From the IMG/VR virus record IMGVR_UViG_3300008267_000499, positions 1 through 32,898 of that record: a DNA stretch of 32,898 nt. One strand, given 5' to 3'. Below the pieces are notes generated by a model. That model saw nothing but the letters and a program-made list of their open reading frames with translations, made no database searches and was not told where the DNA came from. Below, one piece after another: positions 6,045-32,898 of this stretch. Origin of the DNA: a virus. Numbering within the stretch: position 1 is the first letter of the stretch; each line of letters begins with the position of its first letter. The position numbers and the translations under genes are program-made.

Positions 6045-6967
6045 GCCTCAACCTCTTTTAAACTAGCGGACATGTTAACTAAACGTTTAGAGCCAACAAT
6101 GTTTTTATATTGAATCGTGGGTGGATTAGGCATTATTGAACCTGTTGCTCCTTGACCAGAAGACCAGTTAGTGCTATATTGAACACCAGTTCCCCAAAGA
6201 TCATGTCCATGGCCAGAAGAACCATCAGCTAAAAACAGTGTTGCAATACCACCTCTAATAGTTACAGTTGACGGCGTATTATCTGTTCTTGAAATATATA
6301 TTCTAACCGCTTTAGCCCTATTTGCTGCACCAGTAACATTACTAAAAGTAGCTGATGAATCATAAAGACTCGAAGCATTATATGCTAACTGTGTTAGCGT
6401 CACAGGTGTTCCATCTGCACCAGTTGAAGTCAATATTGGTACTGCTTTAATACTTGCAGTGCCAGTCGCACTATAAACAAAACCTAAACGTAAAACATGT
6501 TCTTCAGGGATAAGCAAAGTTAATGAACGCACAGTTTCCGCAGTATTAAAAACATTATATAATGCGCTTTGATAAGGAAGATTTTTTGCTGTAACGCTAT
6601 GAGTTACAGGTGTTGGTTTGTTGTCGCTTGAAATAAGGCTAGGCCAGTCACGCACAGTAAGCATTGGTGCAGCCCAATGTGTAGGTAAAATGTTTTTGGC
6701 AAACGGATCTTCCCAATAGAGAAGCCCTCCACCATAAATACCGTCTTTAAAATCTTTGATAACCTGCAACTCATCTAAACTACCGTTCCAAGACATATCA
6801 TAGTTTTTAGTTGAGCCAAAAGATGATTTAATAAAACTTCCACCATTAGTGAACTGTTGTTCAGCTAAAAAGCTTGTAGAGTTAGCGTTCATATCTGCTA
6901 AGGGTGCTTTAATCCAAGTTCCGTAACGTTGATTACCGAACCAGACTTTACCGTCATAAACTGCCAT
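6035..6967 (-). CDS. Distal tail protein (Dit-like), minor tail protein
   Basis: The 310-residue protein is encoded directly after the tape measure; its ATG shares a base with the tape measure stop (TAATG). In siphoviruses this position belongs to the distal tail protein, which caps the tube and recruits the hub. Features include an N-terminal YDGKVWFGNQRYGTWIKAP, a central SMSW-like strand with DMSWNGSLDELQVIKDFKDG and LLYWEDPFAKNILP, and a carbohydrate-module-like beta region between about 120 and 260. The ending (NMSASLKEVEAWL) is typical of a virion assembly tail. Assignment rests mainly on gene order and size. Confidence 0.6.
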   Translation of the reverse strand: MAVYDGKVWFGNQRYGTWIKAPLADMNANSTSFLAEQQFTNGGSFIKSSFGSTKNYDMSWNGSLDELQVIKDFKDGIYGGGLLYWEDPFAKNILPTHWAAPMLTVRDWPSLISSDNKPTPVTHSVTAKNLPYQSALYNVFNTAETVRSLTLLIPEEHVLRLGFVYSATGTASIKAVPILTSTGADGTPVTLTQLAYNASSLYDSSATFSNVTGAANRAKAVRIYISRTDNTPSTVTIRGGIATLFLADGSSGHGHDLWGTGVQYSTNWSSGQGATGSIMPNPPTIQYKNIVGSKRLVNMSASLKEVEAWL

Positions 6968-9900
6968 TAATTTGCACCTCTCATAGCTAGTAGCATGTTT
7001 CCTCTGTTTGCGCTTGAAGCAATCTGCCTATCATCTGAATAAAGATTTATAGGTCTGTTTGCCAATGACATCAACTGCATTAAAGCGCTAGAAGATAATT
7101 CTACCACCATTTTACCGTTAGTAGACTGCCCCATGTTTCCATAGTTTAAAGGCATCCTTTGGACCTGTAAAGTGTTTAATGCATTCATGAAATCTAAACC
7201 ATAGTATTTGACTGCTTTAGCGTTTTGAACATATTCACCATTAGATAGCCTAGCTGTAATCGAGTCGCTTCTTGCTGTGCCCGGGCCAGAAACATACCCA
7301 CCTGAAGCATAATGATTCCACTTTAACGGATCCCCTTCGGACCTACCCCAAAGAATATCCAATCCAGCAGAAGCCCACCAATCTTGTTTTTTAAATCCAA
7401 GCAATTTATCTCTAGACTTATTTGCCTGATTTCTTCTTGTAAATATAAGGTTTCTTTGAGCCTGTAAATTGTCATAATATTTTTGAACTCTAGCTTTAGC
7501 ATTTGAATTTAGATCCTCAAATTTAACTTGATTAGGATCTAAGCCTTCATTTCTTACTGCTGTATCATATTGTCCTTTTAGTTCTTCAAGTTTTTTCTTA
7601 TCTAAATTATATTGTTGAGCCGACCAAGAAGAATACATTGCACCATTAGGCATTTCCACTAACTTTAAAGCATATTGAAGTTCACTAGATAAAGCATTTC
7701 TTAATTCTTCTTCAGCAGCTTTTCCTGCAACACTTTCTTGAATGCTTCCTATACTAGCATACATTCCCTCATTTGCTTGCAATTGTTTAAGTTCGTCAAT
7801 AATTCGCTTAAACTTCTTTTTCTGTGGGCCACCTAATTTACCGTATATTTCTTGATACTCTTTAGGGCTTCTCATAGCTCTAAACAAGTCATTTTCACTT
7901 GGAGCATAATCTTTACCTTTAAGCTCTTTTAACGCTGAAGCAAATCTTTCCGTATATGCTTTTTCTGCTTGAGTTTTCTTTTCTGTAAGGCTACTTTCAG
8001 AAGCATTTAAAGCTAACTCTCCTATCTTCTTTTCAGGAGCACCCGGTGTCGGTTTTGGTTTTTTATTTGGATCAGTAGAACCAGCACCACTTGTTTGATT
8101 ACTACTTACAATAGAAGTGACACCATTGTTGTCTTTATTTGCAGCCCACCATTCAATCCAAGCACGCATGCCTGGGTCGGCAACAACTTTAACTGTAAGT
8201 TGATTAGGTAGTTTTTCTACAATTTTTTTCCAATCTTTAAAACTATCCAAATATGGTTGTAGTTCTGTTTCAGAAAAACCTAAAGCCATTGCTCTAGTTT
8301 TAAAATCAGATTTTAATGTTTTAACTTGATCAAGTATTCTTTGTCTGTCAGCTTTTTGAGTTTCACCAGTATATTTACTATACTGATTAGCTAAAGCGGC
8401 TAAGTGTCCCTGATAATCTTGAACCATGCTACGCATAGTTTCCCTATTTTGAATCGCACCAGGATTCATTCCAACCAGACCAGTACTTGACTGCTCTGCC
8501 GCCTTTTGTGCTTCAAGTTGTTTATCTTGAATTTCAGCAGTCTTGGCAGCGATCTCAGCTCTAAGTTTATCGGCACGCATAGTATCGCCATACCTTAAAG
8601 CAACACTCAACTGGTATTCTAAAATATTTCTATCAGCAGTGATAGAAGATATTTCTCTATTAATACCTTCTAACTGTTTACGTGCCTGTTCAAAACGATC
8701 TGTAACTGCACTCCAAGAATTAGCTAACTTATCTGTAGATTCCTCTAAACCATAACGGACAGCAAAAGCAGAAGACATCAAAGATGAAAGGTCGCTAACA
8801 TAATTTGTTAAAGTATAAACCTTTTTAGCAACATCTTCAATAGCTGCAGCTGCACCAGTTTCATCTATTGTCTCAAAAGTACCCATCAAAGCAGTAATTA
8901 CTTTACTGTTCTCAACTCCAGCCAATGTTGTAGAATCTAATGCTTTAGCTATATTCATTAAGTCATTAAAAATTTCGCTAGAAAGACCTGGAGGCAAAGA
9001 CAAAGCATCAAAACTCTTCTGCAAAAATTCTACTGCACCAGTTCCAGGTTTAGTTAAAGCAGCCTTAAGTATGTCGCTAATCTTAACGCCAGCCTGTTCA
9101 GCAAATTGACCTAAATCTTGTTGTCTTTCAAAATACTTTTTAAACATACCCTGAATAACATCATCCTGCATTGCAGCATTAGCCAACCATTCTTGAGAGT
9201 TTTTATGTAAAGCTAAAGTTTGATATTCAACTTCATCAGTGGTTTCAGAAACAGCCTCAGTTAATGGCCCGTTTGCTTCTGTAGCAGTTTGAAGACCCTC
9301 AGCCCAATCTGCTATACCTGTTTTTGAAGTTGTTATTTTGCTACTGTAAGTTGAAAACGCTTCTCCACCATCTCTAAAGGCCTGAGTGTCTTTATAGATT
9401 GCTTCACGAAATGAAGCTAAACCGCCACCAGCTTCTTCAAGATCCACTTTCATGCTATCCAGGTGAGTTTGTATCATACTGAAAACTGTTGATGCGATTG
9501 CAAAAACACCTAAAGCCGTGCTAGCAATCATCATGCCCCTACCAAACGCCCTAGTTGCAACTGTACCCATTTTAATAACAGCTACTTGTTCTCTACCTGC
9601 AACGGTTCCAGCCTTGGTTGCCACAGTATTAAGGTTTTCAGCTTGAGTGGCAGAATTAACTGCTGTAGTTTCTTCTCTAGTTGCTTTACGACTAAATAAT
9701 CTTTGAAGAGCATTTTGTTTTTTAGCATTAGTATTACCTATTGTTGCTAAAGTATCTTCGTTAGAAGTTAGTGTTGCTTGTTTCATTGCATTTAGTTCTG
9801 CATCAAAATCTGCTTCAGAAGCCATACCTGAACGTCTGGCATCTTTTCTAGAAAGGAAAGTTTTCTCAAGATCACTTCCTTCAGGTACAATTTCTAGTTC

Positions 9901-12900
9901 TCCAGCAGCCTCCATTGCTTTAATTGCTTTTCTAGTAGAAACTTCAATTCTACCGTTAGAACGAACAATAAGTTGTTCTGCACCAAAGAGAGCTTTAGCA
10001 AAAGCCATAATTCCAGACTCTTGTCCACCAATTTTACTTAACGACATTTGCGCAGTTCTAAACGCTAGAAGGCTTGCCGTAGCTTTCATGCTAGCCATTC
10101 TAGCTAAAGTCATAACCGAAACTATTGCCGTTATTGCTGTTGCAACACGCATTGCCCACTGGCCAGCAGGGTTAGCCGCGATCTTATTGAAATACTCTAA
10201 AATACCTTTAACCATGTCAAGTAGAACACCTACTGGACCAGATAATGCTGCACCAAAAGCATCCTGGAACATTTTAAACTGGTTGCTAACAAGCTGCATT
10301 TTAGTTGCAATATTGTCTTGAGTTTTAGCGTAAGAGTCACCCAAGAAAGTTCCATTTTTATAAGACTCTTCAGCATCAGCCATAGCCTGATTATAAACAT
10401 CAAGGTTTTCTGAAAGTTTTTGAAGAGTAGAAATTTCTCTAGTTTCTTTAATGTTCAAAGCATCTAAGGCAACAGTCAAGTTTTTGCTCTTAGATAAAGA
10501 CTCTAAAAGTTTTTTAAAGAATCCTTGTGGATCTGCTTTCCAAAGTTCTTTTGTGCTTTCTGCGCTAAGACCTAATCTTTCTGCAAAAGCTTGTAGAGGT
10601 TTACCTCCACCTTCGACGGCACGGTTAATGTCACCAAACAAACGAGTGATAACACCACGTGCTTGTTCAGGGGCAATACCCAAAGAGGACATTGCTGTGG
10701 CTAAGCCAATAATTTCTTGAGCAGCAAAACCAGAGTTTTCTGCGGCAGCAGCAATATTTTCTGTTAATGTAAGAATTTCAATATCTGTAGCAACAGCATT
10801 AACACCAGCATAGGCTACCGCTGAGCCTAGTTTATTAAAGTCTTCAGAAGGCACGTTTGCTAGTTGGCTGATTCGACCAAACTTTTGTGCAACAGTATCA
10901 GAAGCGATTCCGGTGATAGTGGAGAACTTAGAAACTTGCTCAGTAAAGTTTGTTATACCATCAGCCTTAATACCCATCTGTGCACCAAGGGTTTGAATTT
11001 TAGCCAACTCATCAAACGCTATAGGAAGTTCACCAGTTAGTTTAACCAATTCATAACGCATTCCAGCAAACTCATCTTTTAATGGTTGCATAGAACGTTC
11101 AACAGAAGTAAAAGCTGTTTCGTATTGCGCAAAAACATCTATAGCTTGCCTAAATTCGGTTACAATTCTTCTTAATACTTGGTTGAATTGTTGGTAAGTG
11201 TTTGCAACGTCATAGAGGGCATAGCGTCCGCTAATCCAAGAGTCCATCATTTTACGGTTATAAGCTTCAACCTGTTTCATGATAGCCATTTCATTCTTCA
11301 TTTGACCTTCAAGAGCTTTAGATGCCTGACTTCTTTCTAATTTTGCCCTTTCTCTTGCTTGGTCAATCTGTGCTTGATGATGAATACCCTCAAGACCTAA
11401 AGTATTTGTTCCTTCAACATTAGAAATACGAACATTCTTAAACTCTTGTCTTCTACGCACAGCATCAGGGACTTCGTAAGCCATACGACCATTATTGAAC
11501 TTACCTACAGGCCCTTGAGCGATAGAGGAATCAATTTGATCTACAAGTTTAGTTAACTCGTCGACAACATCTTGACGGCCTTTTTCTTCAGCGTCAGCAA
11601 TTTCTTTAGCCAACTTACGTTTAACTGTTTCAAGATAACTCTTACCAGATACACGATCTTTAATTCCTCTAGCTTTATCGCTAACCTTATAGACATCAAC
11701 TTCAGCAGAAGTTAAAGCTCCAGAAGCATCCCGCATTCTACGACTGCCAACAGGGCCAGCCGCGATGCTTTGCTGAACTTCTTTAAGTTGATCTTTAATT
11801 TTTTTAACTAGAACAGGTGCAACGTTTCCAACACTTGCACTTTCAAGAGCTTTTTGAAGCCTAGCCTCTGCCGCCCTCAATTGTTCTAGAGGGGCCGCTA
11901 AAACGGCTCCACGGCCCCCAGAGGAGGCTTTCTTTTGAACTTCAACCTGCTGTATACCTAACTGCTCTGCAAGGGCTTTAAGCTCCTTTTCAAGCTGTAT
12001 CTGCTCAGGTATAGGTTTAATCTTTTTCTTTTGAGCAAAGAACTGCTCCCTAACACCACCATTAGCTTCAATCTGTTTAGCCAAAGCATCAGCAACATCA
12101 TCCCTATTAAATAAAGCTTCATCAATTTGTTTTTGAACTTTTACAATATCATCCAAAAGCTGTTTTGGTTGCATTGCACCAGACTTAACAGCCTGATCCC
12201 TTTGAGCCTGAAGCAAAAGAAGCCTAGACTTAAGTTCCTCAACCTTATCAACTTCATACTGGAACTCAGCTTTCTTCCTTCGTGCCTGAAGGTTAGCCTT
12301 CCACATTTCAACTTCTTGAAGCTTTTTATCGTATTCCATCTGAACAGCCAAAGCCTGTTGAGCCGCATCCTGAGAAGGAGGTGTAGGCGAAGCAGGAGTA
12401 GCAGGTCTAGCTGCACCAGAACCAGGAATATATTCTGGTTGCATAGTGTGTGGAGGTTCAACAGAAGTTTGCCTCTGCCACATTTTAGCGTTCTCTGGCA
12501 ACGGAGTTTTTTGATCAAACTTTCTGAAACCCCAAATAGCATCAGAAATTTTATTCCAACCAGCCTCAACAAGACTTAACGTTCTTCCAGCAATACCTTT
12601 TCTTTCTACACCAGAATCGGAAGCTGCTTGACGCATAGAAAAGGCGTTAACCAAAGTTGCAGCAGTATCAATTGTAGGGTCATGTGCCTTAGCTTCAGCA
12701 CTGGTAAGAGTCGGTTTTGAACCACGTTTAGGGGTGAGCTCTTCCCCCATAACCATACCGGTAAGCCATTTATATGTTTCACCAAGCTTTTTACTGACAC
12801 CAGCAAAAAACATTTTTGTCATTGACTCTGTTTCGACAAGAAGACTCTCATCTCTAAACTGTTTTGCAGTAGGAGCAGTTATTCCATATTTAGCGAACTC

Positions 12901-15900
12901 TTTACCAAGTTTAGTTAAATCACTTAAACCACCCTGATGAATAGCTAAAGGAATTTTCTTTTCATAAAGTTGAGTTAAAATAAATGCAATATCTTCAAGT
13001 TGATTTACATACTCTTCTTCGCTACCCTTAGTGTTCTTTTCACCGTAACCTAACGATTCAATTCTCTTAATAAGGTTAGGTAGGGCCCTAAAGTTATCGG
13101 ACATGCCCTGCTGTAAACCAATAGCTTTAGCAGAACCAGGGTTAAAATATTGTCCAGTACTAGGGTCAGCTGGTGGAACCAGCATTCCATGACCAATGCC
13201 TATAAGGTTTGGACGCACAACGGTTTGACGTTGAGGACCCTCAACCATGCTCTCAACACCAGCACCAGCTACAACAGAATAACCAAATACTTTATCTCTA
13301 CCAGATCCAGGTTGAGCGCCAGTAGACTCGACATCCAAAGCAACAAGCAAATCTTTAGAAGTTCTAGCAGCCTCTTCAAGGTTTTTTAAAACCTCAGCAT
13401 TACGTTTAGCAATTTCTTCCTGCTTAGAAACTTGTGCACTACGATCCGGAGCGGAACGGAACATAGCCATACCTTTTTGAATTCTTGCTTCAGCTTCAGG
13501 TGTACCCTCTTTTTTAAGTTGCTGTATAAGTTGTACAGCTTTAACTTTTTCGGCTTCACTCCAACCTTCATGGAAACTGTCTGCCAGTTCTCGGCCAGCC
13601 TTATCGAGCACAGCTGTGCCTTCGAATAATCCTTCTTCAAGTCCATCAACGGTCTGTTTACCGGATCTGCGCATTCTTTTAGATGGAGATTCAATCTCCA
13701 TTTTCTTTTCATAACCCTCAATAACAGAATCGGCTAAACCTCCACCGGCTTGTTCCGCTTGAGGTTTAGATTGTTCAATTTCCTTTATGACACCACTTGC
13801 AGTATCTTTTCCAAGATACTTTTTAGTTATTTTGTCGTTTTCTGGAATCCCGGGAACACTTCTTATTCCAAAGCCAGTCATCCTAGAATTAACATCTAAT
13901 GTTTTAGCAATAGAATCTTTTGCTTGAGCAACAATTTGAGGGCTTAGGTCTGTAATTTTTCCGCTAGATAATACTGCCGTTAAACCTAAGATTGCCTCCC
14001 TAAGATCAATAACCCCAGAAGTCATTTCAGGGACTACATCTAATCTTTCAAAAATACCTTCAACACGGTCAAGTGAAATTTCAGCTCCACCAGCTTTATC
14101 TGAAGCATCCTTCTTACCTGCATCAGTTTTACCTGCACCAGCCTGCAACAATTCAGCAAAATATTTTTGACGATTCATACTAAATGCTTTAATGTAAGTC
14201 ATTACGGTGGCGTCAGGAGATGGTCCAGATGGAACACCAATATCGCTTACAAGGCCTTGAGGAAGTTTACCGTTTGCATCTGGCGTTATAGCAGCCTTTA
14301 AAGTTATTCCATATATTTTTTGAAAAGTAGTAGCCAAATCTTTTAACGCTGTAACTATTGGTGCTTCAGATTCACTAACATTCAAGAAACCATACTGATT
14401 GCTGCCAGAAGCATTAAACATTTGAAGCAAAGCTTCCATCACAGGATTAGATTCAGTGCCCTTAGGGTTTCCAATTATATCGACGTTACTTCCAGGCTTT
14501 GTCGGATTAGACATCGCATTTTTAACTTTAACATCTTTATCAAAAAGCAAAGACTGTAGCTGTAGAGTCTCAAGCAACGCTTGTGCAGTAGGATTTAATC
14601 TAGAAATTATTTCATGAAACTTTAATAAAGAATCTGTTGAACCCAAAACTTGATATTCAAACTGAGCAGTATCAGATTCCTCATCCAAACCTTTAAATAC
14701 TTTTTCTGGATTATTTACACCTTTAGTAACTAAAGAAATAAGTTCTTTTAAAACATTAGACATAACTGACTGTCCTAAAACAGATTCAATTTTACCTACG
14801 TTTCCAGAAAGTTTAGGTTCACCAGCAGGGTTTAAAGCGTCAGTAAACTTATTTAAAGCTCTAAGGATAAGACCTTTGTCACTGTTTGGGTCACTCGAAT
14901 AAAGGTTAGGTCCACCTAAAGGTGACCTAAATTCTCTTATAGTTATTCTACTTATAGCATCTTTAACAGATTTAACTAAATCAGCTTTATCTGGATTCTT
15001 TTTAGCATAGTCAGTTAACTGTGAGGAAAGAAGCGCATTTAAGGCAGCGCGTAATTTTCTTGTTTCTTCAATTTCTTTTTCAGGGTTAAGTTTTAAATCT
15101 TGATTTCTTTTTTGGTAAGCAGGTTCTTCACCGACAACAGATTCATCTTCTTTTTCTTCTTTTAAAGAACTGCTGTAAAGGTTCTTTGGTTTAGATGCTG
15201 TGCTAAGAAAAACTCCGCCAAGAGTTTTATTTAATTCTTGAAAAATTAATGCAGCAGCCTCAACAGCCATTTCTAATTGATCTGCACCAACAATCTCAAC
15301 CTTACCCTCAATACCAGCAACACCGTCAGCACCAATGGTTTTTACTTTAACCCTACCCTTAGGAAATGTTGATTTTAATCCACCAAAAAGAATCTGAACT
15401 ATTTCTTTAGTTTCACGGTTTGCTTCGTTTATTGCTGCAAGTGTATCAACATCTGGTGGCACGATAGAACCACTGCCACTTGAAATCATTTCCTGTTGAG
15501 TGCCAAATGAAGAACTAACTGCGGTAGAACGCCTTTTAGCTCTTAAAGCCTCTGTAATAGCATCATCAGATAAACCGCTATTTTCAAGAATTTCTTTAAT
15601 AGCATCAGCTTCTTCTTCATCTCCCTGTTCTTCAGCTGCAACGAAAGCGTTAACTAAATCTTCAACTTGACTTTGAGTGGCATCCCTAAGCACAACAGCA
15701 ACCTGTGACTGGCCAGTAAAGCCAGGTCTGACTCTTTTTAAAACTTCAAGAACAAGAGAACCCATGTCAAAAGGTTTAGTATTAATTTCACCTGTTTTTG
15801 GATTGGTTGATGACTTTACAATATCCTCAACAATATCTGCAACAATGTTCCTAAGCTGCGCCCGTTGCTTACCTTCATCCAAAGAACTTCCCATACCCCA

Positions 15901-16908
15901 AGGAGCGCGGTGAGTTCCGCCAGAATCTGTTGAAGACAATTCTCTATTATCTTTATAAGTGACAGTGTTGCGTAGCTTATCTTTTTCACTTGCAATAAAA
16001 CTTGAATTGCTTTCAAAAGAATCTTCGATCTCACCAATCTGTTCTGTAAGCTCAGACATAAAACCAGTGATTTTAGTAATTCTAGCCGTAGCTACACTAA
16101 TAGTTTTACCTATATCAAGTTTCTCGCTAGGATCTTTACTAGAAGAAAACTGTGCTTTTAAACTCGCTAATCGTGTTCTAATGTTTTGAGCTTCTTGACC
16201 ATATCTTCTACGCATTTCCTCAAGAATATTTTTACGATCTAAAAGCATATTGTGATACTCTGGACCTTTTTCGATTCTAGCTATCTCATCTAAAATCTGC
16301 CTTCTTTTCTTTTCCGCCTCAACAGCACCTTGATTAGCTTTTTCAACAGCTTCTTTACGTTTCTTTAAAGCCTCAACCACTTTCGGGTCACGCATCAACT
16401 GGTTATACTCTTTTTGATAAGTTTCTAACTGTGCACCTTGGGCAGCAATACTTTTAGCTACAGTTTGTTTTTCCTTTTCAAGTTGACTAATAAGCTTTCT
16501 TGAATGCTCTATAGCTAAATCAAGTTTTGGATCAGCTTTATCGCCCTGTTTCGCTTTAAGGCTAGACATTTGATCTATAGAACCCTTTATTGCAGAAATT
16601 CTATTTTCATATTCTTCAAGCTTTTTAAACATGCCTTTAGTGCCACTATACTTAACTGGTGCACCAGCATTTTTAGATGAATCACCAAAAGAAGATTTTA
16701 TTGTAAGAATTCTTTTTTCAAGCTTAGCCATCTTGTCAACAATATTTTGTGTGTCAACATCAAGCTGAATTTTAGGTGCTTTTATTTCGCCTAACTCAGC
16801 TTTTAAAGCAGCGGTCTGCCTTTTTGCTCTAGCAGTGAATTCTTTTAAAGCATTGTCTGCGGCAGATGTGTCTAACCCAAGCCTTATATTAAAATCTTCA
16901 CCAGCCAC
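6967..16908 (-). CDS. Giant tape measure protein with embedded DEDDh exonuclease-like domain
   Basis: At 3313 residues this sets tail length; at the usual 0.15 nm per residue the tail would be near 500 nm. Translation starts at GTG 16908 with AGGAG six bases upstream. From the N-terminus: coiled-coil region (1-350); low-complexity helical regions; the tape-measure motif ESPSKRMRRSG near 1073; an exonuclease-like domain (about 1185-1425) with D1192/E1194 in ALDVESTG, D1330 in IHQGGLSDL and H1409/D1414 in AHDPTIDT; a Pro-rich linker and long coiled coil; a PhageMin_Tail-type core (about 1929-2200); hydrophobic segments near 2254-2285 and 2459-2480; more coiled coil; and the C-terminal ASGGYVSGPGTARSDSI near 3201, common to tape measures. 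Tape measure and exonuclease motifs are seen; nuclease activity is inferred. Confidence 0.93.
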   Translation of the reverse strand: MAGEDFNIRLGLDTSAADNALKEFTARAKRQTAALKAELGEIKAPKIQLDVDTQNIVDKMAKLEKRILTIKSSFGDSSKNAGAPVKYSGTKGMFKKLEEYENRISAIKGSIDQMSSLKAKQGDKADPKLDLAIEHSRKLISQLEKEKQTVAKSIAAQGAQLETYQKEYNQLMRDPKVVEALKKRKEAVEKANQGAVEAEKKRRQILDEIARIEKGPEYHNMLLDRKNILEEMRRRYGQEAQNIRTRLASLKAQFSSSKDPSEKLDIGKTISVATARITKITGFMSELTEQIGEIEDSFESNSSFIASEKDKLRNTVTYKDNRELSSTDSGGTHRAPWGMGSSLDEGKQRAQLRNIVADIVEDIVKSSTNPKTGEINTKPFDMGSLVLEVLKRVRPGFTGQSQVAVVLRDATQSQVEDLVNAFVAAEEQGDEEEADAIKEILENSGLSDDAITEALRAKRRSTAVSSSFGTQQEMISSGSGSIVPPDVDTLAAINEANRETKEIVQILFGGLKSTFPKGRVKVKTIGADGVAGIEGKVEIVGADQLEMAVEAAALIFQELNKTLGGVFLSTASKPKNLYSSSLKEEKEDESVVGEEPAYQKRNQDLKLNPEKEIEETRKLRAALNALLSSQLTDYAKKNPDKADLVKSVKDAISRITIREFRSPLGGPNLYSSDPNSDKGLILRALNKFTDALNPAGEPKLSGNVGKIESVLGQSVMSNVLKELISLVTKGVNNPEKVFKGLDEESDTAQFEYQVLGSTDSLLKFHEIISRLNPTAQALLETLQLQSLLFDKDVKVKNAMSNPTKPGSNVDIIGNPKGTESNPVMEALLQMFNASGSNQYGFLNVSESEAPIVTALKDLATTFQKIYGITLKAAITPDANGKLPQGLVSDIGVPSGPSPDATVMTYIKAFSMNRQKYFAELLQAGAGKTDAGKKDASDKAGGAEISLDRVEGIFERLDVVPEMTSGVIDLREAILGLTAVLSSGKITDLSPQIVAQAKDSIAKTLDVNSRMTGFGIRSVPGIPENDKITKKYLGKDTASGVIKEIEQSKPQAEQAGGGLADSVIEGYEKKMEIESPSKRMRRSGKQTVDGLEEGLFEGTAVLDKAGRELADSFHEGWSEAEKVKAVQLIQQLKKEGTPEAEARIQKGMAMFRSAPDRSAQVSKQEEIAKRNAEVLKNLEEAARTSKDLLVALDVESTGAQPGSGRDKVFGYSVVAGAGVESMVEGPQRQTVVRPNLIGIGHGMLVPPADPSTGQYFNPGSAKAIGLQQGMSDNFRALPNLIKRIESLGYGEKNTKGSEEEYVNQLEDIAFILTQLYEKKIPLAIHQGGLSDLTKLGKEFAKYGITAPTAKQFRDESLLVETESMTKMFFAGVSKKLGETYKWLTGMVMGEELTPKRGSKPTLTSAEAKAHDPTIDTAATLVNAFSMRQAASDSGVERKGIAGRTLSLVEAGWNKISDAIWGFRKFDQKTPLPENAKMWQRQTSVEPPHTMQPEYIPGSGAARPATPASPTPPSQDAAQQALAVQMEYDKKLQEVEMWKANLQARRKKAEFQYEVDKVEELKSRLLLLQAQRDQAVKSGAMQPKQLLDDIVKVQKQIDEALFNRDDVADALAKQIEANGGVREQFFAQKKKIKPIPEQIQLEKELKALAEQLGIQQVEVQKKASSGGRGAVLAAPLEQLRAAEARLQKALESASVGNVAPVLVKKIKDQLKEVQQSIAAGPVGSRRMRDASGALTSAEVDVYKVSDKARGIKDRVSGKSYLETVKRKLAKEIADAEEKGRQDVVDELTKLVDQIDSSIAQGPVGKFNNGRMAYEVPDAVRRRQEFKNVRISNVEGTNTLGLEGIHHQAQIDQARERAKLERSQASKALEGQMKNEMAIMKQVEAYNRKMMDSWISGRYALYDVANTYQQFNQVLRRIVTEFRQAIDVFAQYETAFTSVERSMQPLKDEFAGMRYELVKLTGELPIAFDELAKIQTLGAQMGIKADGITNFTEQVSKFSTITGIASDTVAQKFGRISQLANVPSEDFNKLGSAVAYAGVNAVATDIEILTLTENIAAAAENSGFAAQEIIGLATAMSSLGIAPEQARGVITRLFGDINRAVEGGGKPLQAFAERLGLSAESTKELWKADPQGFFKKLLESLSKSKNLTVALDALNIKETREISTLQKLSENLDVYNQAMADAEESYKNGTFLGDSYAKTQDNIATKMQLVSNQFKMFQDAFGAALSGPVGVLLDMVKGILEYFNKIAANPAGQWAMRVATAITAIVSVMTLARMASMKATASLLAFRTAQMSLSKIGGQESGIMAFAKALFGAEQLIVRSNGRIEVSTRKAIKAMEAAGELEIVPEGSDLEKTFLSRKDARRSGMASEADFDAELNAMKQATLTSNEDTLATIGNTNAKKQNALQRLFSRKATREETTAVNSATQAENLNTVATKAGTVAGREQVAVIKMGTVATRAFGRGMMIASTALGVFAIASTVFSMIQTHLDSMKVDLEEAGGGLASFREAIYKDTQAFRDGGEAFSTYSSKITTSKTGIADWAEGLQTATEANGPLTEAVSETTDEVEYQTLALHKNSQEWLANAAMQDDVIQGMFKKYFERQQDLGQFAEQAGVKISDILKAALTKPGTGAVEFLQKSFDALSLPPGLSSEIFNDLMNIAKALDSTTLAGVENSKVITALMGTFETIDETGAAAAIEDVAKKVYTLTNYVSDLSSLMSSAFAVRYGLEESTDKLANSWSAVTDRFEQARKQLEGINREISSITADRNILEYQLSVALRYGDTMRADKLRAEIAAKTAEIQDKQLEAQKAAEQSSTGLVGMNPGAIQNRETMRSMVQDYQGHLAALANQYSKYTGETQKADRQRILDQVKTLKSDFKTRAMALGFSETELQPYLDSFKDWKKIVEKLPNQLTVKVVADPGMRAWIEWWAANKDNNGVTSIVSSNQTSGAGSTDPNKKPKPTPGAPEKKIGELALNASESSLTEKKTQAEKAYTERFASALKELKGKDYAPSENDLFRAMRSPKEYQEIYGKLGGPQKKKFKRIIDELKQLQANEGMYASIGSIQESVAGKAAEEELRNALSSELQYALKLVEMPNGAMYSSWSAQQYNLDKKKLEELKGQYDTAVRNEGLDPNQVKFEDLNSNAKARVQKYYDNLQAQRNLIFTRRNQANKSRDKLLGFKKQDWWASAGLDILWGRSEGDPLKWNHYASGGYVSGPGTARSDSITARLSNGEYVQNAKAVKYYGLDFMNALNTLQVQRMPLNYGNMGQSTNGKMVVELSSSALMQLMSLANRPINLYSDDRQIASSANRGNMLLAMRGAN

Positions 16909-27670: not shown

Positions 27671-29077
27671 TTATGCAGTAGACTGAGCATCCATATCACG
27701 TAAAGAATTATCACTATTAGACAACTGACCTACAACACCACTATTACCTTTAGAAGGAACAACAGAACCAGAAGAAGAATCAGAAGAAAAACCATCAACC
27801 TTATCCTTAGCCATCGGAGAAATACCACGATGCAAAGGAACAACATCCAACTCATCTAAAACAGCATTACGGAACTCATCCTCCCACAAAGCACCAGCCT
27901 CATAAGCCAAAGAAATAGCTTGAATCTGACGGTAAGTAGCCTCAGACTCCATCTTCGGCCACTTAATTCCCACATTACGTGCACCCATAAACTTTAATAC
28001 ACGCTTAAAAAACGCTTCCCAAAGTTTCTGTCTAGCTTGCATCGCCTTAATAGTAGGAACATCCAAAGTCTGTGCAGTACCATAAGCACCAGAAGAACCA
28101 GGATCAGACATCAAAGTCACAACAGAAACCTCCAAAGCAGAAGCAACCATAGCAGCCAAAGCACGACCATCACTCAAATCAACACTACTAGCCCTAGGCA
28201 AAGAAGACAACTCCATGTCAGCACCCAAAATAGCTGTAGAACCAGCAGACTGAGGAGTAGCAATCGTAGCCGCAGCAGTAGCACCAGCATTCTTAGAACG
28301 AGTCTTCAACTGCCAAGCAAACATAGCCAAAGACTTCAAAATACGAGAACCATCCTTCAAATACTCGTTATAAGCATAAGCCCAAGGGTAAGCAGAAAAA
28401 GCATCAGCAACACCCCAAACAGTACCAGTCCTACGGTTAACCATAGAAGCAAACATAACCTTAGAAGAATCAACAGGCTCCCCCTTAATTCTCCTAACAA
28501 AACTACCATTCGGAACATAAAGATCCGAAGGATACCAAACAGAAACCTGAACAGGAACACCACCACTCTCCTCACTATGACGAGTCCAAGACCTACGATA
28601 ATAACGCACAAACTCACTATCATCAGGATCAGTCACCCAACCAGTAATCTCACCAAAAGGAATACGTTGCAAACGCTTAGAAGACACATCACCCAAAATA
28701 AAAAACTGTCCAGCAGTAAAATGAGAATGCTCATTAATAGCCATAGCCTGAGAACCAAACAAAGCACTCTGTGCATTATCAGACTCAATCAACTCACGAA
28801 CCCTAGCCGACAAACCATCAAACTCAACACCCTTACCAAAAACATAGCTAGTACGCAAACCCAAACCACGCTTCAACAAAGGATTACCATCCACCTTCTC
28901 ACACAACTCAGAAGCCAAAGAATGCAAAGACTCCAAACTAAAAGCATTCAAAGAACCCAAATACTCACTCAAAGGAGCCCAACCCCTATCCTCAATAGAC
29001 AAAATAGTGTCAGCCATACGCTGATAAGACTCCGCAAAACCATCCGAATTATTAGAAAAATCGTCAGAAAAACTCAA
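27671..29077 (-). CDS. Portal protein
   Basis: The 468-residue protein follows the large terminase. Motifs include FGKGVEFDGLSARVRELIES, HFTAGQFFILGDVSSKRLQR and WVTDPDDSEFVRYYRRSWTR. Further on are a central AYPWAYAYNEYLKDGSRILK helix, the crown part (ALEVSVVTLMSDPGSSGAYG) and a Ser-rich C-terminal tail. This is the order of SPP1/HK97-type portals that form the 12-fold DNA channel. Start: TTG 29077 (MSFSDDFSNN) has GGAG six bases upstream; the TTG at 29089 overlaps that GGAG and is unlikely. Third codon positions are dominated by T and G, as in the terminase genes. Confidence 0.82.
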   Translation of the reverse strand: MSFSDDFSNNSDGFAESYQRMADTILSIEDRGWAPLSEYLGSLNAFSLESLHSLASELCEKVDGNPLLKRGLGLRTSYVFGKGVEFDGLSARVRELIESDNAQSALFGSQAMAINEHSHFTAGQFFILGDVSSKRLQRIPFGEITGWVTDPDDSEFVRYYRRSWTRHSEESGGVPVQVSVWYPSDLYVPNGSFVRRIKGEPVDSSKVMFASMVNRRTGTVWGVADAFSAYPWAYAYNEYLKDGSRILKSLAMFAWQLKTRSKNAGATAAATIATPQSAGSTAILGADMELSSLPRASSVDLSDGRALAAMVASALEVSVVTLMSDPGSSGAYGTAQTLDVPTIKAMQARQKLWEAFFKRVLKFMGARNVGIKWPKMESEATYRQIQAISLAYEAGALWEDEFRNAVLDELDVVPLHRGISPMAKDKVDGFSSDSSSGSVVPSKGNSGVVGQLSNSDNSLRDMDAQSTA

Positions 29078-29115
29078 AATAAACTCCAAACTAAATAAAA
29101 AACATTAAAAACATT

Positions 29116-30633
29116 CTACCATTTCCAATCAGAATAGAAAGGAAACAAAGAATCCATAGCATTAGCCTCAACCAAAACCCTATCACCAGGCCTAGCAGAA
29201 CCAAAAGGAGACGACATCAAACGAGACAAATCCAAAGCAGCATACATACAAGCATCCAAACGGTCAGGAGACTTCATACCCCTAGACCTCATATCATCCT
29301 TAGACTCAATCTGAATAGAACCCTTAGAAGAAAACTTATATTTAATAGCCATCATCTCATCCAACAACAACTTATCATCCAAATCCAAATCAACCCTACC
29401 CATAACCATCCCCTCACGCAAATTATCGTAACCAGCAGCACGCGCATTCAACCAACGCATATTATCAGGAGAAGCAGCAGAACCAACAACACTCACAACA
29501 ACATACTTACCATCACACATATTAGCCAACATATCAACAACCGGAGCACCCAAACCAGTAGCATCCACACGAACCTCAGACACACCCAAACTCACAGCCA
29601 ACTCATGAACCCTATTCGCAGACTCCACAGCATTAGCCTTAGACCACGTAGACAAATGACGTAAACGGCCACCCCTATTCGAATACACTACAGAATCATC
29701 ATCACCAAAACGAGCCAAGTCAACACCCAACACAACAGGAACATTCATATCCTCAACAATATCACAATCAATCGCCCTATCAATAGCCTGCTGACTAAAA
29801 AACGTAGTATCATCCTCTTCAGGAAACTCAGCCAAAATCTTAGAACGATACCTAGCCGAATCCTCACCCCACGCCAACCTCTGACGCTCCACCCAAGCAG
29901 GCTGAATCAACAAAGGCCTCAAAGACTCAGGAATAACCTCACCCGTAAAATTCGGTGTATCAAACGCAGAAATTTTTATTTTATGCCAAGTCTCATCCTC
30001 ACGCATAATCCTATGAAACTCAGTACCCCTACGATCCGGATTACCAATAGCCAAAACCCGAGAATCCGCAGTCGTAGTAACAGCCTCAGCAGCAGTATAC
30101 AAATCCTGAGGAATACCACCAGCCTCATCCAAAACAACAAAAACAAAACGACGGTGAATACCCTGAAACGCAGAAACAATATCAGTATCAGCAGGACGAC
30201 GACCAAACCCAATCAAAGTACCATACTCATCCTGCAACTTCCACTCCTCAGACTGATTAATATGCCCAGGCAAACTAAAACCATTAACAGCCGCCAACTT
30301 ATGATTATCCTTCAACTCCCTAAACAAAACACGCGCAATCTGCGGATAAGTAGGCGCACTACAAATCAAAGCAACCTCATAAGGATCATGCACAGCAATC
30401 CACCAAGCACCCAAAATACCAGCCACAGCACTCTTACCAGCACCATTACAAGACACCACAGCAGTATGCGTATTCTCAACCAAACTACACCCAATATCAG
30501 CCTGCTTCGACCACATATGCTTACCCAACACATCACTAGCCCAAGCAACAGGATCAGTCAAATACAAACCATTCTTAGAACGACGACGCAAATCACCAAT
30601 AACACCATCAATAACATTATCAATCACCCTCAT
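29116..30633 (-). CDS. Terminase large subunit
   Basis: From ATG 30633 the protein has 505 residues. The ATPase part shows Walker A SCNGAGKS (61-68) and Walker B FVFVVLDE (163-170). A coupling motif follows (AIGNPDRRGTEF). The RNase H-like nuclease has VLGVDLARFGDDDS (Asp305), RVDATGLG and DACMYAAL near the end. It packages DNA into the procapsid and cuts concatemers. A GTG at 30702 adds 23 hydrophobic residues that do not fit the family, and a small gene overlaps that stretch, so I start at 30633. Almost every third codon position here is T or G; the first 41 codons have no other base there. Confidence 0.9.
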   Translation of the reverse strand: MRVIDNVIDGVIGDLRRRSKNGLYLTDPVAWASDVLGKHMWSKQADIGCSLVENTHTAVVSCNGAGKSAVAGILGAWWIAVHDPYEVALICSAPTYPQIARVLFRELKDNHKLAAVNGFSLPGHINQSEEWKLQDEYGTLIGFGRRPADTDIVSAFQGIHRRFVFVVLDEAGGIPQDLYTAAEAVTTTADSRVLAIGNPDRRGTEFHRIMREDETWHKIKISAFDTPNFTGEVIPESLRPLLIQPAWVERQRLAWGEDSARYRSKILAEFPEEDDTTFFSQQAIDRAIDCDIVEDMNVPVVLGVDLARFGDDDSVVYSNRGGRLRHLSTWSKANAVESANRVHELAVSLGVSEVRVDATGLGAPVVDMLANMCDGKYVVVSVVGSAASPDNMRWLNARAAGYDNLREGMVMGRVDLDLDDKLLLDEMMAIKYKFSSKGSIQIESKDDMRSRGMKSPDRLDACMYAALDLSRLMSSPFGSARPGDRVLVEANAMDSLFPFYSDWKW

Positions 30634-30739
30634 CACCCCTAAAACCAACACGCAAAACAGGATACACAACATCCTCAACACTCTCAACCCGAGACTCAAC
30701 ACTCAAAGAACCACCCTCAGGAACCCGCCCCACAACCAC
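30620..30739 (-). CDS. Hidden 39-residue protein between terminase subunits
   Basis: A frame from GTG 30739 to TGA 30620 encodes MVVGRVPEGGSLSVESRVES and then VEDVVYPVLRVGFRGDEGD. All its codons, like those of neighbouring genes, end in T or G, which is not so in the other two frames of this stretch. It starts six bases after the small terminase stop and overlaps the first 14 bases of the large terminase, so it would couple the two. The ribosome site is weak. The sequence has no known domain; acidic and probably structured by beta strands. It could be a coupling leader. Confidence 0.5.
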   Translation of the reverse strand: MVVGRVPEGGSLSVESRVESVEDVVYPVLRVGFRGDEGD

Positions 30740-30744
30740 AAGAC

Positions 30745-31275
30745 TCAGACACGCTCATCAAAATCAGACTCCGCCAACAACTCCGCCTTAGCCCGCAACA
30801 AACCCTCACCAACAAGCTCATCCAACTCAGAAACAACAACATCAGGATAACGATCCCGCAACTCCCTCTTAGCAAAATCCAAAGCAGCATCCATAGCCCG
30901 CAACATCACACCCTGCTGATACTCAGACAAACGCAAAACATCAGCATCCAAAGAAACCCTCTGAGCCTCCAAACGACGACCCAACTCCTGCAAAGTCTTC
31001 AACAACAAACTCGCAGACTCCAAATCCTTAAAATCAACAGCATTCTGCATCAAAGAATCCTTCAACACATTCAACTCATGCACCAACAACTGCCTCTGCT
31101 CAACCTCACTCCACACATCACGACGAGCCAACAAATTCTTCACATGCACAACAGCCTGAGCAGCAGGAACACCAGTCAAACGCTCAATCTCCTCACCACT
31201 CTTACCAGAAGCAGCAGCACGAAGCAAAGCCTCATCCAACAAAGAAACCTCAGTCCTCCGCACCAAACACCTCAT
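30745..31275 (-). CDS. Probable terminase small subunit
   Basis: The 176-residue protein has an N-terminal helix-turn-helix-like part (LLDEALLRAAASGKSGEEIE, RLTGVPAAQAVVHVKNLLAR), a central helical oligomerisation part (ESASLLLKTLQELGRRLEAQ) and a charged C-terminal helix. Size, helical make-up and position directly before the large subunit fit the small terminase, which recognises the packaging site. ATG 31275 has GAGG four bases upstream. Its start lies within the last codons of the short gene upstream. Confidence 0.7.
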   Translation of the reverse strand: MRCLVRRTEVSLLDEALLRAAASGKSGEEIERLTGVPAAQAVVHVKNLLARRDVWSEVEQRQLLVHELNVLKDSLMQNAVDFKDLESASLLLKTLQELGRRLEAQRVSLDADVLRLSEYQQGVMLRAMDAALDFAKRELRDRYPDVVVSELDELVGEGLLRAKAELLAESDFDERV

Positions 31276-31414
31276 CCAACCTCAACTGCAAAGCCTTAAC
31301 CTCATTAAAAACAATAAAAATCATCTCAGCCAAATCCTGATTAGAAACATCCTCAACAACAGACTCAACATCATCATCACCATCAGCAATACCACGCGAC
31401 AAAAAAACCACCAC
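31250..31414 (-). CDS. Hidden 54-residue acidic protein upstream of the small terminase
   Basis: A frame from GTG 31414 (TTG 31420 and GTG 31411 also possible) to TGA 31250 encodes MVVFLSRGIADGDDDVESVV and on to VFNEVKALQLRLDEVFGAED. Nearly all codons end in T or G like the neighbours, and the product is a sensible acidic helical protein. GAGGG overlaps the possible starts. It overlaps the beginning of the small terminase by 26 bases. No family recognised; a terminase accessory or small regulator is possible but not supported by a motif. Confidence 0.6.
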   Translation of the reverse strand: MVVFLSRGIADGDDDVESVVEDVSNQDLAEMIFIVFNEVKALQLRLDEVFGAED

Positions 31415-31428
31415 CCTCAAAAAATTTT

Positions 31429-31641
31429 TTACAAACCATCATTCAACAAACCAAACTCAACCTTAAAAGAATCAACAGCAACCCTCAACACATCCCACAA
31501 CTCCCAACCAACCCCAACCTCAAAAAACACCACAACACCATCACACACACCACGAAACACAGAAACCTCAGGACCATCATCAAACAAAAACAACTCAATC
31601 CGACGACACCCAAAACCAGGCAAACTAAACAAAACATCCAT
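31429..31641 (-). CDS. Small protein of unknown function at the head of the late operon
   Basis: From ATG 31641 the protein has 70 residues (MDVLFSLPGFGCRRIELFLF and on to VDSFKVEFGLLNDGL); a GTG two codons earlier is possible. Codon third positions are T/G-rich in this frame as in the terminase and portal. It is the first gene of the minus-strand late region after the terminator at 31.83 kb. No strong ribosome site is visible. I do not recognise the family; it is acidic, hydrophobic and compact, with no membrane segment long enough to be sure of. Confidence 0.55.
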   Translation of the reverse strand: MDVLFSLPGFGCRRIELFLFDDGPEVSVFRGVCDGVVVFFEVGVGWELWDVLRVAVDSFKVEFGLLNDGL

Positions 31642-31819
31642 ACACACATACTACCACACAAAAAACCAAAAACACCCAAAAACCAAAAAACGTGCACACG
31701 TAGGGAGAAGAAACCAAAGGGTAGGGTTCCAGGCGAATAAATTGAAGGATTTGAGGGGGAGGGCTTTTTCTGGGATATGCACCCCTTTAGGGGTGTATGA
31801 GCAGAAAAATTATGGGCGC
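31642..31819. other. Non-coding stretch with small inverted repeats
   Basis: No convincing gene lies between the late operon and the terminator. It holds ACGTGCACACGT (31690-31701, a short inverted repeat) and a hairpin GCACCCC / GGGGTGT around 31779-31796. A sharp change in base composition occurs near 31730: strongly A/C on the plus strand to the left, G-rich to the right. A packaging site or an origin would fit here, but no specific signal could be confirmed. Confidence 0.5.
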
Positions 31820-31855
31820 AAAAAAAATGCCCCCTTAGCCTTTTGACTAAGGGGG
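31820..31855 (-). terminator. Intrinsic terminator for the right-hand minus-strand genes
   Basis: The minus strand has CCCCCTTAG, an 8-base loop, CTAAGGGGG and then CATTTTTTTT. The stem is 31830-31838 with 31847-31855. It lies about 70 bases after the SLOG gene and would stop its transcripts before the late operon, insulating the two. Confidence 0.9.
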
Positions 31856-31930
31856 GTCTAGGGGGTCTCCCCCTTGCGGGGGTGGAGGGGGCAGGGCCCC
31901 CCCCCGGGATTATAAGGGCGGAGCCCTTAT
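31856..31930 (-). repeat. Hairpin repeat unit, copy 1
   Basis: In minus-strand order: a hairpin ATAAGGGC / GCCCTTAT with loop TCC (31912-31930), a run of C/G, a hairpin CCCCC-GCAA-GGGGG (31869-31882) and the tail CCCCCTAGACCCCCC, which extends into the terminator. The stop codon of the SLOG gene lies inside the first stem. Copy 2 is at 32693-32749. Confidence 0.75.
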
Positions 31931-32331
31931 GAGCCGACGGCAGGAGGCTCTTGATACCACCACCGGACTGGCACGCCTGCTTGAACGGCGAGCCGACAGC
32001 AACCTGCTGTACCACGGGACTGCCAGCCCCGGATGAAGAAGGCGGCACAGATTTCTACGCCGGAGTTCACCATAGCCGCATTACGGCGGGGACCGGCTGA
32101 CTTGCCGAACTTGGCCCACTCTGCCGGATGCGGCTCGATGGTGACTCCGGGGATTGTCGCGGCTGCTAAACGGGCTACAAGCAAGTCGGCTCCGCGACAA
32201 GCCCCGTGGACGATGACGATTGGGCGACCTGCCGCGTATTCGACTACGGCTTGGAGGGCGGTGAGCACTACTGACTCATCCGTCAAGTCACGCGACCCTG
32301 TAACGAGGACGCGAAGTGGAACGTTGGACAT
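31927..32331 (-). CDS. SLOG-family (DUF2493/YAcAr-like) nucleotide-binding protein
   Basis: From ATG 32331 (AAAGG six bases upstream; a GTG at 32349 lacks a good site) the protein has 134 residues. It shows the Rossmann-like signature RVLVTGSRD (7-15), IVHGACRGAD (about 40-49) and KSAGPRRNAAMV (about 77-88), as in DUF2493 and other SLOG proteins that bind nucleotides or nucleotide-derived signals. Many phages carry them; roles are mostly unproven, some SLOG domains act in sensing in defence systems. The gene is much GC-richer than the structural genes (near 60% by eye). It sits between two hairpin-rich gaps. Confidence 0.85.
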   Translation of the reverse strand: MSNVPLRVLVTGSRDLTDESVVLTALQAVVEYAAGRPIVIVHGACRGADLLVARLAAATIPGVTIEPHPAEWAKFGKSAGPRRNAAMVNSGVEICAAFFIRGWQSRGTAGCCRLAVQAGVPVRWWYQEPPAVGS

Positions 32332-32355
32332 AACAGACCTTTCGGGCACTGATAG

Positions 32356-32392
32356 GAGTATTTCCCCTATCGCGGGGATAGGGGAAATACTC
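32356..32392. repeat. Perfect 16-bp inverted repeat upstream of the SLOG gene
   Basis: GAGTATTTCCCCTATC (32356-32371) pairs perfectly with 32377-32392 around the 5-base loop GCGGG. It lies between the membrane protein stop (32405) and the SLOG start (32331). On the minus strand no U run follows, so an RNA stability or regulatory hairpin, or a protein binding site, is more likely than a terminator; on the plus strand a TTTTTT run occurs 9 bases later. Confidence 0.85.
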
Positions 32393-32404
32393 GATTCTAC
32401 TTTT

Positions 32405-32692
32405 TTACCAGTCGAGGTTGTCGTCTGGTGTTTGGTTTGTTGTTTCTTTGTTCAGCCATCTGTCAACGAAGTTGAACGATGCGATGATGGCTATGATTGA
32501 GCCGATTCCGCTTGTGACTGCGAGTATCATAAACACGGCGTAGCCTTCGTGGTTGGCTGTGTTGTACATGCTGTAGCGGACTAGTATGTCTGTTGCGGCC
32601 TGGTAGGCTAGCAGGCAGATGACTGCTAGGGATAGGCTGAGTAGTGCTTTGGTTCCGTTCACGGTTACTCTCTTTCTTTTTGGTGTGAACAT
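32405..32692 (-). CDS. Small membrane protein with two predicted membrane segments
   Basis: The longest frame gives 95 residues with a basic N-terminus (MFTPKRKRVTV), a first hydrophobic segment (about 16-32, ALLSLSLAVICLLAYQA), an extracellular or loop part and a second segment (about 52-71, AVFMILAVTSGIGSIIAIIA), and a polar acidic tail ending DNLDW. The ATG at 32692 directly abuts a hairpin repeat and lacks a ribosome site; a GTG at 32662 with a purine-rich AAGAGAG before it is an alternative that keeps both segments. Function unknown. Third positions here are A/C-rich, opposite to the terminase genes on the same strand. Confidence 0.6.
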   Translation of the reverse strand: MFTPKRKRVTVNGTKALLSLSLAVICLLAYQAATDILVRYSMYNTANHEGYAVFMILAVTSGIGSIIAIIASFNFVDRWLNKETTNQTPDDNLDW

Positions 32693-32749
32693 GGGGGGTC
32701 TAGGGGGGCCGAAGCCCCCCTAGCGGGGTTATAGGGGCGGAGCCCCTAT
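32693..32749 (-). repeat. Hairpin repeat unit, copy 2
   Basis: In minus-strand order: hairpin ATAGGGGC / GCCCCTAT with loop TCC (32731-32749), then CTAGGGGGGC / GCCCCCCTAG with loop TTCG (32700-32723), then CCCCCC. It has the same order and shared ends as copy 1. It follows the stop of the partial gene at 32755 and precedes the membrane protein. Confidence 0.8.
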
Positions 32750-32754
32750 GCGAA

Positions 32755-32898
32755 CTAGAAGTCTAGTTCGCTTGAAGCGTCAGCCGGTTTTGCTGGCGCT
32801 TTGGACAACTTGTTGTCCATCGACAGGTCGTTGGCTAGTCCTGTGACTACTTCCATAACCTTTTCTACTCGGTTTAGTGGGGCAGCCGATTCGATGAA
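32755..32898 (-). CDS. C-terminal end of an unknown protein, cut by the window edge
   Basis: The minus frame is open from the right edge to TAG at 32755 and gives 47 residues: FIESAAPLNRVEKVMEVVTG and on to SKAPAKPADASSELDF. The Ala/Pro/Lys-rich linker and the acidic, aromatic last residues (SSELDF) recall the tails of single-stranded DNA-binding proteins, where such an end recruits partners. This is a weak resemblance and the core domain is outside the window. The hairpin repeat follows the stop after five bases. Confidence 0.5.
   Translation of the reverse strand, partial: FIESAAPLNRVEKVMEVVTGLANDLSMDNKLSKAPAKPADASSELDF

Follow-up and report, generated by a model that had tools for sequence, protein, structure and literature searches.

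GC hairpin arrays with ACCCC linkers in a phage early region: probable copies of a dispersed REP-like repeat found across bacterial phyla

Do strong hairpins standing just past stop codons, and differing from one another by a change that preserves pairing, mark the 3' ends of phage messages, or can such structures have another origin? This question is raised by two hairpin arrays near one end of a stretch of viral DNA of 32,898 bases (the window, which is part of a viral record of 38,517 bases). An initial annotation, made from the sequence alone, had described them as a two-copy repeat and as a selected RNA element acting at mRNA 3' ends. With a probability of about two in three, we instead read both copies as a dispersed REP-like repeat, composed of units of a GC hairpin plus ACCCC(GC), usually two to four in a row, that has landed in the phage. 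Overall, the repeat resembles a spreading DNA repeat more closely than it does a dedicated mRNA-end signal, and it cautions against taking every strong hairpin behind a stop codon for an mRNA signal, even where compensatory changes occur.

The terminase, portal, protease and tail genes of this phage, recognised by matches to PHROGs, lie on the minus strand throughout, and the terminase shares 43-44% identity with its counterpart in Arthrobacter phages. The two arrays are found among the early genes, next to an ssb-like gene, a small membrane-protein-like gene and a gene of the SLOG family. The ssb-like gene gave no family match and owes its label to its position and general look, and for the membrane gene an alignment with the relatives L009, L012 and L027 favours the GTG start at 32662 over an ATG at 32692. 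The features are as follows, in window coordinates and all on the minus strand.

32750-32771 (-): extra hairpin round the stop codon of the ssb-like gene, GCGAACTAGACTTCTAGTTCGC = GCGAACTAGA-CT-TCTAGTTCGC, outside the family grammar (hairpin scan)
32731-32749 (-): copy 2, hairpin 1, ATAGGGGC-TCC-GCCCCTAT (sequence; part of the covariance model match)
32724-32730 (-): copy 2, linker AACCCCG, equal to the family linker ACCCCGC with the first base of hairpin 2 included (model alignment)
32700-32723 (-): copy 2, hairpin 2, CTAGGGGGGC-TTCG-GCCCCCCTAG (-20.8 kcal/mol on either strand)
32693-32699 (-): copy 2, closing ACCCCCC (sequence)
32405-32662 (-): small membrane-protein-like gene, GTG start at 32662 with AAGAAAGAGAG upstream
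32356-32392 (-): 16-bp perfect hairpin between the membrane and SLOG genes, outside the ACCCC grammar (hairpin scan)
31927-32331 (-): SLOG-family gene, YspA/cpYpsA-related (PF10686 YAcAr, E 2.4e-12)
31912-31930 (-): copy 1, first hairpin, ATAAGGGC-TCC-GCCCTTAT (sequence)
31905-31911 (-): copy 1, first linker AATCCCG, its G also opening the next G run (sequence and grammar)
31884-31905 (-): copy 1, middle hairpin (G-run, CCCTG, CCCCCTCC; part of the covariance model match)
31858-31876 (-): copy 1, last hairpin in the family register, CAAGGGGG-AGA-CCCCCTAG (model match, folding)
31851-31857 (-): copy 1, closing ACCCCCC, its C run overlapping the terminator stem (sequence)
31820-31855 (-): ordinary intrinsic terminator, CCCCCTTAGTCAAAAGGCTAAGGGGG, CA, U8, not of the repeat family (terminator scan)
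record 33220-33243 (-) (L005:1621-1644): third unit, a single hairpin plus ACCCCCC, upstream of the ssb-like gene and just beyond the window

The hairpin pairs at 31912-31930 and 32731-32749 are present on the minus strand with their TCC loops where they had been placed, both copies are closed by CCCCCTAGACCCCCC, and the arms differ by a single compensatory change at one stem pair, A-U in copy 1 and G-C in copy 2. The count of two hairpins for each of two copies was, however, too low, given that copy 1 has three, another surrounds the ssb-like stop and a third unit lies beyond the window. Copy 2 reads hairpin, ACCCCG, hairpin, ACCCC, is wholly intergenic and begins 5 nt past the TAG stop (32757-32755) of the ssb-like gene, as the annotation had it for both copies, whereas in copy 1 the TAA stop of the SLOG gene (31929-31927) sits within the 5' arm of the first hairpin, so that this copy starts inside a stop codon. 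Copy 1 is a three-hairpin array followed by the U8 terminator, which thus stands between it and the structural genes. Of the two tetraloops claimed for the second hairpins, both sequences exist and TTCG in copy 2 stands, but the CCCCC-GCAA-GGGGG pairing of copy 1 (31882-31869) competes with the family register, in which the GGGGG is partnered by the downstream CCCCC and not by the linker; with energies of -9.9 kcal/mol for the GCAA loop and -10.4 kcal/mol for the AGA loop, the two pairings are nearly equal in stability, and the GCAA tetraloop belongs to only one of them.

Chance folding does not account for this density of structure. The last 1.2 kb contains 6 perfect hairpins with stems of at least 8, as against a mean of 0.1 and a maximum of 2 in 300 dinucleotide shuffles. 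The folding z-score of the copy 2 spacer is -6.4 on the minus strand and -4.5 on the plus strand, and that of copy 1 is -2.5 and -1.4, respectively. Three near-identical assemblies carry the same sequence over both copies.

Both copies share a grammar of GC hairpin, linker ACCCCG(C), GC hairpin and ACCCC, which recurs far outside this phage. A pattern made of the first hairpin and linker finds 81 stretches in viral contigs, and among the 56 distinct contexts listed, the window's included, a second hairpin and then GACCCC often follow, with other stem letters and with pairing kept. In bacterial genomes, the two-hairpin frame occurs in at least 117 stretches from many phyla, with at least 123 matches, and some of these contexts hold three or more hairpins in tandem. 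An alignment was built from 68 bacterial copies out of at least 106 distinct ones, with those of the window left out. In its second helix, 64 cells are changed on both sides, against 19 in shuffles and with none of 500 shuffles reaching that number; 98.1% of cells are paired, and no slid version of the helix comes near. The covariance model from these 68 copies (R1) matches copy 2 at 32750-32695 with 54.8 bits (E 1.2e-8) and copy 1 at 31904-31853 with 37.2 bits (E 2e-5), in both cases on the minus strand only. Since the search pattern was derived from copy 2, the model depends on the window and constitutes a confirmation and not an independent discovery, and the first helix and linker are invariant in the alignment because the pattern had fixed them. 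The second hairpin offers a freer test, as does copy 1, where the first linker reads AATCCCG and the last two hairpins score best. The covariance model that the annotation had proposed thus retrieves both window copies from bacterial ones, its second helix covaries, and the prospect that further copies and conserved pairing would be missing was not borne out.

How, then, is the repeat distributed? Carriers of the grammar include Streptomyces, Rhodospirillales, Ruminococcus, Clostridiales, Turicibacter, Synergistaceae, Desulfovibrio, Magnetococcales and Anaerolineae, and all 19 genomes chosen as carriers hold between 5 and 433 pattern copies each. Carriage is nonetheless sparse at the level of the phylum, with 3 of 149 genomes in the sample from the phylum of the Streptomyces carrier and 1 of 81 in that of the Ruminococcus carrier, and it is uneven within genera, with 27 of 41 genomes in the genus of the Streptomyces genome G002 and 8 of 60 in that of the Ruminococcus genome G012 (each tally counting the carrier itself). 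Such patchiness, together with many copies in the carriers, is what a spreading repeat gives. Moreover, one gain could be resolved: the stretch round an array in G012 has a match in 57 of 60 congeneric genomes (G012 counted). The G012 spacer measures 224 nt, whereas the gap is 9-30 nt in all 10 congeners, of 11 loci examined, for which both flanks could be aligned, so that the gain of the array took place in G012. At a second Ruminococcus locus orthologous flanks were not found, and at a Streptomyces locus the spacers are variable in a listing made without alignment.

On the phage side, the succession of ssb-like gene, membrane gene and terminator is conserved in three syntenic relatives (L009, L012 and L027), which at the ssb-membrane junction carry other, unrelated hairpins and no copy 2 array. 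R1 found nothing below E 0.35 in 63 loci round the terminase genes of relatives (735 kb). In IMG/VR, the exact copy 2 hairpin is confined to contigs of this phage, and the region has no DNA match in collections of named phages and plasmids beyond short hairpin matches, a comparison limited by the low-complexity filter of BLAST. The ssb-like gene itself is common to only five loci from four phages. The SLOG gene, missing from the three syntenic relatives, has a GC content of 0.62 as against 0.43 in the surrounding phage stretch L005 and is likely a recently imported cargo; given this difference in composition, the region round the copies has probably taken up foreign DNA. The idea that the SLOG gene and the hairpins travel as one mobile cassette was rejected, as 13 SLOG relatives in other viral loci lack a convincing unit or flanking array, and the three distant units in the SLOG locus L442 and the one in L446 are unlike the family grammar.

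The reading as a dispersed repeat is favoured because of the grammar, its recurrence across phyla and in viruses, the kept pairing, the intergenic placement, the patchiness, the one Ruminococcus insertion and the absence of the arrays at the syntenic spots of relatives. The counterpoint is that only one insertion site is cleanly resolved and that similar G/C hairpins could have arisen convergently. The element would spread by copying itself into intergenic gaps, probably by way of hairpins in single-stranded DNA that an enzyme recognises, and would tend to persist where it does little harm, just past stop codons; horizontal transfer would have brought it into the phage. Transcribed as part of a polycistronic phage operon, it would form very stable RNA hairpins, which may delay 3' to 5' degradation or cause a slight attenuation of read-through from one early gene to the next, an RNA effect that would be secondary to the spread of the element.

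Dispersed palindromic repeats are usually regarded as lineage-specific. In the arrays described here, the likeness to REPs and BIMEs lies in short palindromic intergenic repeats with many copies, clusters, occasional inverted pairs and a presence across phyla (PMC3733652). That survey covers repeats tagged with GTAG or CGTC as well as repeats with a GGGGWSAS motif that flank transposases, none of which has the present grammar, and its main text contains neither the string GGGGC nor the string CCCC; the arrays here differ in having no constant GTAG or CGTC tag, in having tandem hairpins joined by ACCCC linkers, and in that no associated tyrosine transposase was found. No gathering-level match to Rfam release 15 exists in the window, and a search of L005 and of six carrier loci, with E values of up to 1 allowed, returned only two weak Clostridiales-2 matches, both in L244 and far under threshold. 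A description of an ACCCC-linked hairpin repeat was not found in the open-access literature, sequence strings included, subscription papers being outside the scope of the search. What is known is therefore the type, a REP-like dispersed repeat, and what is new is the distinct tandem grammar and the unusually wide range. It is tempting, and for now only a tentative proposal, to go further and to regard these arrays as a separate superfamily of tandem ACCCC-linked hairpin repeats present in several phyla. A hairpin-recognising activity acting in trans would move them, and phages such as this one would help to carry them from one lineage to another. Two testable questions follow from a grammar common to Streptomyces, Alphaproteobacteria, Clostridia, Synergistaceae, Desulfovibrio, Magnetococcales, Anaerolineae and a phage where no transposase is evident: what copies the repeat, and whether phages carry it.

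A rather unlikely alternative to the dispersed repeat is selection in place, with the arrays serving as intrinsic terminators that are weak or lack a U tract, or as protectors of 3' ends, so that hairpins clustered just past stop codons would end or protect early phage mRNAs. Both copies stand at stop codons on the coding strand, the minus strand folds very strongly, syntenic relatives have a hairpin of different sequence at the same junction, and copy 1 directly precedes an ordinary terminator. A study of 13 genomes proposed that clusters of hairpins lacking U tracts act as terminators (PMC8355165), and structured 3' ends without U tracts have been described in Streptomyces clavuligerus (PMC8269248). 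Copies 1 and 2 conform to this cluster geometry, with at least two hairpins that are separated by fewer than 15 nt, lie no farther than 80 nt from a stop codon and are mostly free of U tracts, although geometry alone is no proof of termination, and the clusters of PMC8355165 differ from the present arrays, which have a sequence grammar crossing phyla and lie in either orientation in bacteria. As in a Rho-independent terminator, a GC hairpin lies in an intergenic gap, and the window has a true one at 31855-31820; the array hairpins differ in being followed directly not by a U-rich run but by the C-rich ACCCC linkers. A terminator scan reports neither array and does report 31855-31830 with U8. 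Against selection in place, moreover, stand the position of copy 2 within an operon, in which complete termination would deprive the membrane and SLOG genes of transcription, the real terminator that already lies behind copy 1, and the plus and minus strands that fold about equally well.

The orientation of the bacterial arrays, which are mainly intergenic, weighs further against this alternative. Of 113 arrays placed in six genomes (44 others having been set aside, 17 because they lay within called genes, 15 because they lay at edges and 12 because they lacked two neighbours), those in tandem spacers divide into 40 sense and 34 antisense (p 0.56), and the remainder comprise 22 convergent and 17 divergent cases (p 0.52). 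Two earlier tallies with a cruder element definition or gene caller, in which many copies were lost at contig ends, likewise gave no clear sense bias in bacteria and are superseded. The viral tally, of 24 arrays counted after 32 inside genes and 11 at edges had been dropped, has 10 sense and 4 antisense in tandem spacers, too few to decide; both tallies relied on home-made gene callers. The phage copies described here are all sense, which says little since nearly all genes there lie on one strand. Stable tetraloops, which the annotation had taken as the mark of the element on the minus strand, are rare: among 94 distinct second hairpins a GNRA loop is found in 2 on the C-rich strand and in 1 on the other, and UNCG in none, so that with 3 of 94 the tetraloop hypothesis is rejected at the level of the family. 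Given the lack of strand bias and the rarity of tetraloops, neither the tetraloop argument nor a role at mRNA 3' ends is supported as defining the element; what stands is that it is structured, and selected or at least propagated. The phage copies may still influence read-through or decay locally.

That short runs of G and C have produced the same look by chance, with a coincidental grammar, is very improbable. Generic GGGGCTYCGCCCC hairpins are indeed widespread in viral contigs, a relaxed pattern giving 30 stretches against 16 for its reversed form, a modest excess that alone proves nothing. The pattern of the repeat, however, read backwards, gives 0 matches in all 19 carrier genomes, in which the forward reading gives up to 433 copies, and linker, tandem order and covariation are common to the copies. 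Further, when hairpins directly before ACCCC are counted without any pattern, three 20-kb stretches of the Ruminococcus genome G012 (L331, L332 and L334) yield 39 units, whereas three other motifs in the place of the linker give 2 between them and are nearly absent there; seven stretches from G019 and G011 yield 4 units against 13, all 13 from the GC-richer G011 stretches, so that the pattern-free excess is clear only in G012 and in none of eight other stretches.

The mover of dispersed palindromic repeats, where known, is a RAYT (PMC3733652). That the arrays are a classical REP/REPIN family moved by such a transposase is hardly credible, despite the size, palindromy, intergenic placement, clusters and occasional inverted pairs that recall REPs and BIMEs, as Y1_Tnp (PF01797) is present in only 4 of 13 carrier genomes and absent from 9, among them carriers with 153, 104, 90 and 47 pattern copies, no unit lies within up to about 1.5 kb either side of six Y1_Tnp loci, and the four bases before the first stem vary over the 68 rows (CATA in copy 2), with no constant GTAG or CGTC. 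Inverted array pairs occur in Streptomyces between convergent genes, and one Ruminococcus copy has arms of 65 nt; a MITE suggested by these terminal inverted repeats was discarded because an inverted repeat of at least 22 nt spanning the hairpins is present in only 8 of 26 copies, some of which are paired arrays, and is lacking in the other 18. In the Streptomyces genome G002 (L409-L428), inverted array pairs surround a TCCTCAAACGCCGGACGGGCTG palindrome, several of them between convergent genes.

Several minor observations concern the surrounding phage DNA. An open frame of 3313 codons lies at window positions 6967-16908 (-), in a record of only 38.5 kb, and presumably encodes the tape measure protein. 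Judged by eye, the structural genes at 27671-31647 (-) are strongly G/T-rich on the coding strand and the early genes at 31927-32692 (-) are not, the shift in composition falling at the terminator. A run of N follows the end of the window inside the ssb-like gene (L005:1300-1322), and the near-identical contig L007 lacks part of this gene, which L073 carries whole; the run and the partial gene are probably an assembly artefact. Farther into the early region, a glutamine amidotransferase-like protein (L005:2456-3634, -) is encoded near an amidoligase-like protein (L005:4107-5690, -), a pair that possibly serves peptide or wall modification. Upstream of the ssb-like gene, a long non-coding stretch (L005:1700-1860, -) holds G-run hairpins and a CCGCC...CCTCCCCTACCC tail, and a similar stretch with altered letters is also seen in L009 and L027, about -2450 to -2200 from the terminase. 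The Streptomyces arrays are preceded by CGCCCCCGCCGCCCCTACCC, which is similar to this tail of the phage stretch.
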